A program made the position numbers and the translations under genes. This document shows, piece by piece, positions 1 through 8,559 of a DNA stretch of 42,312 bases. This DNA comes from Candidatus Rokubacteria bacterium CSP1-6. GTDB lineage: Bacteria; Methylomirabilota; Methylomirabilia; Rokubacteriales; CSP1-6. Numbering within the stretch: the first letter of the stretch is position 1; each line of letters opens with the position of its first letter. Under the pieces are notes generated by a model. The model ran no database searches. It was not told where the DNA came from and was given only the letters and a program-made list of their open reading frames with translations. Location of the stretch: assembly GCA_001443385.1 (NCBI GenBank), contig LDXP01000015.1, forward strand, positions 1-42,312. The letters are read 5' to 3'.

Positions 1-771
1 GCGGAGCACCGGGAAGGTCGCGTAGTGGAAGGGGATCGCGTACTTGGGCTTGAGCATCTCCTTGGTCGCGTAGGCGGCGTCCTTCGGGTCCATGCCGAAG
101 TGGCCGCCGATGGGGATCATGACCAGGTCGGGCTTGTAATAGTCGCCGATGAGCTTCATGTCGCCGAAGAGCCCGGTGTCCCCCATGTGGTAGAGCTTGA
201 AGCCGTTCTCCAGCTCCACGATGTACCCGACCGGCTCACCCGCGGTGTAGGTGGTGCTCTTCTTCGTCGCCGGGTCGATGAGCGTGAGGTCCGAAAAGTG
301 CTCGGCCCGGACCTGGGTGACGGTGATCTGGGGGCCGGCCGGCTGAACCTTGCCGCTCTTGGCGAAGCCCACCCCCTGCGCCGCCGGAACCCAGCCGATC
401 TCCACCAGCATCCGGATGAGCGTCGTGGACCCGAGGACCTTCGCGCCGGTGCGCTTGGCGAGGTCCGCCACGTCGCTCGACCCGTCGGTGCGACCGACGG
501 TGCCGAGATGATCGCCGTGAGCGTGCGTCACCAGGATCATGTCCACGTTGCCCAGCGCGTCCAGGTTCTTGTGCTGGGGAGGCGTCTTGGGGTTCGTGGT
601 GAGCCACGGGTCGATGACGATCACCTTGCCGGTGAGGGTGGTGATCTTGGTCGCCGACTGCCCCAGCCACTGGACCTCCACCTTGGCGCTCTGGGCCCAC
701 GCGGGGCCGGCGGCCAGCGTGAAGGTCATGGCCCCTGCGAACTTCAGAAAGTCTCGCCGCTGCATCTCCAT
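1..771 (-). CDS. Tat-exported metallo-beta-lactamase-fold hydrolase, copy 1 (partial)
   Basis: The start codon is at 771 and the reading frame runs left off the window edge, so about 28 C-terminal residues are missing. The 257 visible codons match the complete copy at 912-1769 except for substitutions at 16 (silent) and 30 (Phe here, Val in the other copy). It has a twin-arginine leader (RRDFLK) and the zinc motif THAHGDH. The family is the UPF0173-like metal-dependent hydrolases; the substrate is not known. An AGGAGG ribosome binding site precedes the start. The gene is the left arm of a long inverted repeat and diverges from its twin across about 140 bp. Confidence 0.9.
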   Translation of the reverse strand, partial: MEMQRRDFLKFAGAMTFTLAAGPAWAQSAKVEVQWLGQSATKITTLTGKVIVIDPWLTTNPKTPPQHKNLDALGNVDMILVTHAHGDHLGTVGRTDGSSDVADLAKRTGAKVLGSTTLIRMLVEIGWVPAAQGVGFAKSGKVQPAGPQITVTQVRAEHFSDLTLIDPATKKSTTYTAGEPVGYIVELENGFKLYHMGDTGLFGDMKLIGDYYKPDLVMIPIGGHFGMDPKDAAYATKEMLKPKYAIPFHYATFPVLR

Positions 772-800
772 GTGTGCCTCCTTGTATGGGTTACCACCTT

Positions 801-880
801 CATCCTCTCCCCCCCGAGGGGGAGAGGGCAGGGTGAGGGGGGAGAGGAGAAGAGGTGAGGGGCATTCAAGTGGGAGAGGA
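801..880 (-). repeat. GC-rich dispersed intergenic repeat, copy A
   Basis: This is the centre of the inverted repeat. It contains CCCTCTCCCC-type and GGGGAGAGGG-type half sites joined by a GGTGAGGGG segment, so it can fold into hairpins. Read on the minus strand it is almost identical to copy B at 1796-1882, over roughly 70 bp with about one substitution and one small indel. Related copies lie near 12853, 20001 and 26677. The family resembles REP-type palindromes; no protein is encoded. Confidence 0.8.
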
Positions 881-911
881 TGAAGGTGGTAACCCATACA
901 AGGAGGCACAC

Positions 912-1769
912 ATGGAGATGCAGCGGCGAGACTTTCTGAAGTTCGCAGGGGCCATGACCTTCACGCTGGCCGCCGGCCCCGCGTGGGCCCAGAGCGCCAA
1001 GGTGGAGGTCCAGTGGCTGGGGCAGTCGGCGACCAAGATCACCACCCTCACCGGCAAGGTGATCGTCATCGACCCGTGGCTCACCACGAACCCCAAGACG
1101 CCTCCCCAGCACAAGAACCTGGACGCGCTGGGCAACGTGGACATGATCCTGGTGACGCACGCTCACGGCGATCATCTCGGCACCGTCGGTCGCACCGACG
1201 GGTCGAGCGACGTGGCGGACCTCGCCAAGCGCACCGGCGCGAAGGTCCTCGGGTCCACGACGCTCATCCGGATGCTGGTGGAGATCGGCTGGGTTCCGGC
1301 GGCGCAGGGGGTGGGCTTCGCCAAGAGCGGCAAGGTTCAGCCGGCCGGCCCCCAGATCACCGTCACCCAGGTCCGGGCCGAGCACTTTTCGGACCTCACG
1401 CTCATCGACCCGGCGACGAAGAAGAGCACCACCTACACCGCGGGTGAGCCGGTCGGGTACATCGTGGAGCTGGAGAACGGCTTCAAGCTCTACCACATGG
1501 GGGACACCGGGCTCTTCGGCGACATGAAGCTCATCGGCGACTATTACAAGCCCGACCTGATCATGATCCCCATCGGCGGCCACTTCGGCATGGACCCGAA
1601 GGACGCCGCCTACGCGACCAAGGAGATGCTCAAGCCCAAGTACGCGATCCCCGTCCACTACGCGACGTTCCCGGTGCTCCGCGGGACACCCCAGGAGTAC
1701 CAGGCTGCGCTCGGGCAGACGGCGACCCAGGTCTTCCCGATCGGCCCCGGCGACAAGGTCACATTCTAG
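912..1769 (+). CDS. Tat-exported metallo-beta-lactamase-fold hydrolase, copy 2 (complete)
   Basis: A 285-residue protein. Residues 1-28 form a Tat-type leader (RRDFLKF, hydrophobic core, AWA cleavage region), so export to the periplasm is expected. The body is a UPF0173-like metallo-beta-lactamase fold: zinc motif THAHGDH near residue 80, a further GDTG motif, and a C-terminal VHY segment. Typical UPF0173 proteins are about 230 residues; the extra length is the leader plus loops. ATG at 912 is chosen because AGGAGG lies five bases upstream. It lies between two oppositely oriented copies of the GC-rich repeat. A hydrolase of unknown substrate is the safest call. Confidence 0.93.
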   Translation: MEMQRRDFLKFAGAMTFTLAAGPAWAQSAKVEVQWLGQSATKITTLTGKVIVIDPWLTTNPKTPPQHKNLDALGNVDMILVTHAHGDHLGTVGRTDGSSDVADLAKRTGAKVLGSTTLIRMLVEIGWVPAAQGVGFAKSGKVQPAGPQITVTQVRAEHFSDLTLIDPATKKSTTYTAGEPVGYIVELENGFKLYHMGDTGLFGDMKLIGDYYKPDLIMIPIGGHFGMDPKDAAYATKEMLKPKYAIPVHYATFPVLRGTPQEYQAALGQTATQVFPIGPGDKVTF

Positions 1770-1795: not shown

Positions 1796-1888
1796 CCCTC
1801 CCACTCGATGCCCCTCACCTCTTCTCCTCTCCCCCCTCACCCTGCCCTCTCCCCCTCGGGGGGGAGAGGATGAAGGTGAGGGGATTAT
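1796..1888 (+). repeat. GC-rich dispersed intergenic repeat, copy B
   Basis: Located just after the stop of the complete hydrolase gene and inverted relative to copy A. It contains a CCCTCTCCCC...GGGGGAGAGG hairpin followed by GGTGAGGGG. Copies A and B therefore flank the 912-1769 gene as an inverted pair, an arrangement that could mediate inversion or duplication by recombination. It could also act as a transcription terminator hairpin, though there is no T-run. Confidence 0.8.
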
Positions 1889-8528: not shown

Positions 8529-8559
8529 GGGCGCGGGTCTCGACCGAGCACCCGCGCCC
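8529..8559 (-). terminator. Intrinsic terminator between convergent genes
   Basis: A perfect 10-bp stem, GGGCGCGGGT (8529-8538) and ACCCGCGCCC (8550-8559), with a loop that can itself pair. On the minus strand the stem is followed by a T-rich tract (complement of 8521-8528 and the preceding bases), so it terminates mlaA. On the plus strand there is no T-run, but the hairpin may still protect the operon transcript. Confidence 0.8.

Follow-up and report, generated by a model that had tools for sequence, protein, structure and literature searches.

A long palindrome at the very start of a contig raises the question of whether a gene was duplicated in inverted orientation in the cell, or whether the contig was wrongly extended into a mirror image of its own sequence. 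The window, that is the whole stretch of DNA analysed here (42,312 bases), is the entire contig C15 of a draft genome related to Rokubacteria and made of 158 contigs (2,876,791 bases, completeness 90.87). Base 1 of the window is thus one end of C15, and the palindrome extends all the way to it. The inverted repeat has arms at 1-811 and 872-1682 around a 60-nt centre, with 808 of 811 positions identical in a position-by-position count. The sequence-only reading was correct on the length of the arms and on the centre, but it had reported two mismatches where we counted three. These pair positions 16/1667, 30/1653 and 123/1560, all within the outer 123 bases. The 811-nt arm match at 99.6% identity is beyond chance.

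As that first reading had recognised, the duplicated sequence is a hydrolase gene: the right arm contains most of an open gene on the forward strand (912-1769). Its product was identified as a PRK00685-type metal-dependent hydrolase, with a match to NF001911 that passes the curated cut-off (200.9 bits against 144) and spans profile positions 2-227 of 228, and a match to Lactamase_B_2 (84.4 against 27). Unlike the PRK00685-type domain described by NF001911, the window hydrolase has an N-terminal TAT-like signal before the matched domain. This signal was detected by TIGR01409 (20.8 bits, cut-off 16.7), and the Pfam TAT model gave 20.3 bits, under its cut-off of 22.7. Named records yielded two relatives of the gene, both in drafts labelled Candidatus Rokuibacteriota. 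Downstream of the gene lies a broken second hydrolase copy in direct orientation (1928-2249). Positions 1928-2092 are 84% identical to 983-1146 and positions 2092-2249 are 83% identical to 1612-1769; the middle of the gene (about 466 nt) is gone, which leads to a frame shift. At the position of this broken copy, genome G002 carries a different reading frame.

In G002 (locus L008), another reading frame follows the hydrolase gene, and then comes the NHL-repeat protein that is also present in the window. Since this gene order is common to both, we judge the right side of the window, including the inner arm (872-1682, forward strand), to be genuine. In the searched loci of relatives, the hydrolase gene has the NHL-protein gene beside it only in L008 and L031, which represent the same place; this result says little, because most of the other loci have only about 1.5 kb of flank. 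On the left, C15 begins inside the mirror copy and has no unique sequence beyond it. A search of the same genome found the arm on no other contig. We sought the left neighbour of C15 through G002, where the upstream gene has only a 65% match in this draft, on C96; the left neighbour was therefore not placed.

In agreement with the initial description, the palindrome centres on a copy of a dispersed GC-rich repeat: all 53 match rows that the genome search gave outside C15 fall on query positions 795-889. The copy at the centre (795-865, forward strand) is 71 nt long and is a 100% inverted match to a second copy downstream of the gene (1808-1878, reverse strand), which displays the ordinary repeat edge. 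In the stretches read we counted 24 occurrences of the repeat core CATCCTCTCCC: 17 are preceded by CCCTCACCTT, one by CCCTCTCCTT and four by other sequence, and two belong to the palindrome itself. The palindrome's repeat copy does not continue outward as CCCTCACCTT; its left edge is retained only through CACCTTCATCCTCTCCC (795-811, forward strand), and outside these 17 nt lie the mirrored leader and gene. This 17-nt segment is the exact complement of 872-888, which belongs to the leader of the hydrolase gene on the forward strand. The junction thus has the geometry of a strand fold-back on a short complementarity. Identical inverted copies of the GC-rich repeat flank the hydrolase gene, and the repeat is present at many further sites in this genome and in two congeners. 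A second dispersed element of about 75-100 bases was seen in genome G001 (L208, about 555-655) and, as part of a query, gave about 40 matches in this genome, spread over many contigs.

Similar palindromes were found at other contig ends of the same draft. We sampled 151 of the draft's 316 contig ends, taking one or both from each of 80 of the 158 contigs and reading 99 stretches with a total of 805,240 bases including the window. The sample was non-random and was made of C1-C20, 20 repeat-carrying contigs and 40 others. In it, inverted repeats of at least 90 nt comprised the window palindrome, the match between it and the paralogue fragment, the ends of C20 and C77, and two short pairs, one of 103 nt in C86 and one of 97 nt in C79. 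The final 1,711 bases of C20 (37,188 bases; L096 1790-3500) and the final 1,980 bases of C77 (12,136 bases; L104 10157-12136) are palindromic, and both palindromes reach the last base. Each has a short inverted stem and a loop of about 50-75 nt. Outer arms are similar in length, measuring 811 nt in C15 (three mismatches), and 831 nt (one mismatch) and 953 nt (none) in the two sister cases. All three palindromes of 1.6-2.0 kb therefore sit at contig ends among the 151 of 316 ends sampled, and no large internal palindrome was found in the 805,240 bases sampled of this draft. In two congeneric drafts, 73 ends (40 contigs, 461,474 bases) contained no inverted repeat of at least 90 nt.

The hydrolase was detected at E<=1e-60 in 26 of 57 family genomes. 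The draft analysed here gave two matches, the gene plus its mirror, and each of the other 25 gave a single one; no second copy was found in them at this threshold. The arm of C77 is present once each in G001 and G002. In both, the sequence past the fold point leaves a gap of about 0.55-0.6 kb and then matches C100 (8,539 bases) as far as base 8538 or 8539. Given the single arm in these relatives and the continuation into C100, the simplest reading is a false mirror end on C77, whose true course would run towards C100. For C20, an inverted copy of at least 150 nt is absent from the matching G002 locus (4.2 kb); the neighbour of C20 was not placed, with only a 72% match, on C40.

Collectively, these data point to 1-794, the part of the outer arm outside the junction stem (reverse strand, mirror of 889-1682), being very probably a technical fold-back at a contig end rather than a real duplicated gene. 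Of the two readings offered from sequence alone, the evidence favours the assembly palindrome over the recent inverted gene duplication: the structure reaches base 1, two sister contig ends are alike, relatives are single-copy and the neighbour of C77 can be proposed by synteny. We infer an origin of the join outside the cell, in vitro or in silico. At the repeat's left edge, the end of a strand would have paired over 17 nt with the hydrolase leader on its own strand and would then have been extended back along that strand. This could have taken place in a library or amplification molecule, or the join could come from a chimeric read derived from one. On accepting the join, the assembler would have lengthened the contig by about 0.8 kb of mirrored sequence before ending it. 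The step that made the join could have been whole-genome amplification, end repair or the choice of a path in the assembly graph.

We stop short of certainty because of the allele-like differences between the arms, and because genuine long palindromes would likewise interrupt an assembly and hence appear at contig ends. Each of the three differing bases matches the base found in one of the relatives' loci L008 or L009, and two of the differences alter the protein. Since these bases recur in relatives, they resemble natural alleles rather than sequencing errors. They may be alleles of a co-existing strain. Mixed strains in the metagenome would explain the differences, with different alleles assembled into the right and left sides, and so would a real copy that had diverged slightly.

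The latter would be a real and very recent inverted duplication, produced when replication switched template in the cell at the 17-nt inverted complementarity, with copies that have since diverged at three sites. Template switching would leave a junction of the same form, and the three arm differences, with bases found in relatives and two changes to the protein, fit such a history. We nevertheless consider this duplication very improbable. Palindromes of the same kind terminate two unrelated sequences in this draft, whereas the 73 ends of the two congeners gave none, and the 25 other family genomes with the gene have no second copy. In all three cases nothing lies beyond the mirror copy, and the C15 arm is on no other contig. 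Long near-perfect palindromes are moreover unstable in bacteria.

A related proposal is that the dispersed GC-rich repeat itself drives template switching in the cell, its edge pairing with a matching leader and making inverted gene duplications in this lineage. The fold of C77 also lies in repeat-like sequence, and C77 would be a second case if the proposal were true; we regard it as very unlikely. Lastly, part of the population might carry the gene segment flipped between its two flanking inverted repeats, and the assembler might have joined this form wrongly. The gene does sit between 100% identical inverted 71-nt copies (795-865 and 1808-1878), but this reading is scarcely credible and was rejected on the junction geometry: such an inversion keeps the gene start at the right edge of the repeat, and here the mirrored gene start joins the left edge, within the repeat.

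If the terminal mirror copy is a fold-back artefact, as we favour, it matters solely to annotation. Counts should then leave out the partial second hydrolase copy together with all other reading frames in 1-794, and the start of C15 is best placed inside the repeat at 795 or close to it. The mirrored terminal parts of C20 and C77 should be excluded likewise. Screening contig ends for mirror-image extensions would be a cheap control for draft genomes.

In the literature searched, we found no title or abstract on palindromic contig ends in bacterial draft genomes. PMC7111523 makes no mention of palindrom-, inverted or hairpin, and the available portions of PMC8116208 and PMC7674155 contain nothing on palindromic contig ends. 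Closer parallels come from work on chimeric molecules. In PMC1855051, the main chimera product of multiple displacement amplification is described as inverted, with an intervening deletion and a short complementarity; 85% of 475 inspected chimera junctions were inverted, with complementarity of up to 21 bp. Inverted-repeat chimeric reads are described from sonication or enzymatic libraries (PMC10908179), and fold-back reads from long-read libraries (PMC12870357, PMC13141652). These three reports share with the mechanism proposed for C15 the pairing of strands at a short inverted or palindromic sequence, which in them leads to mirror-image reads. The level of observation differs: the join in PMC1855051 was seen in reads and the other three reports likewise concern reads, whereas the C15 case is known from an assembled contig.
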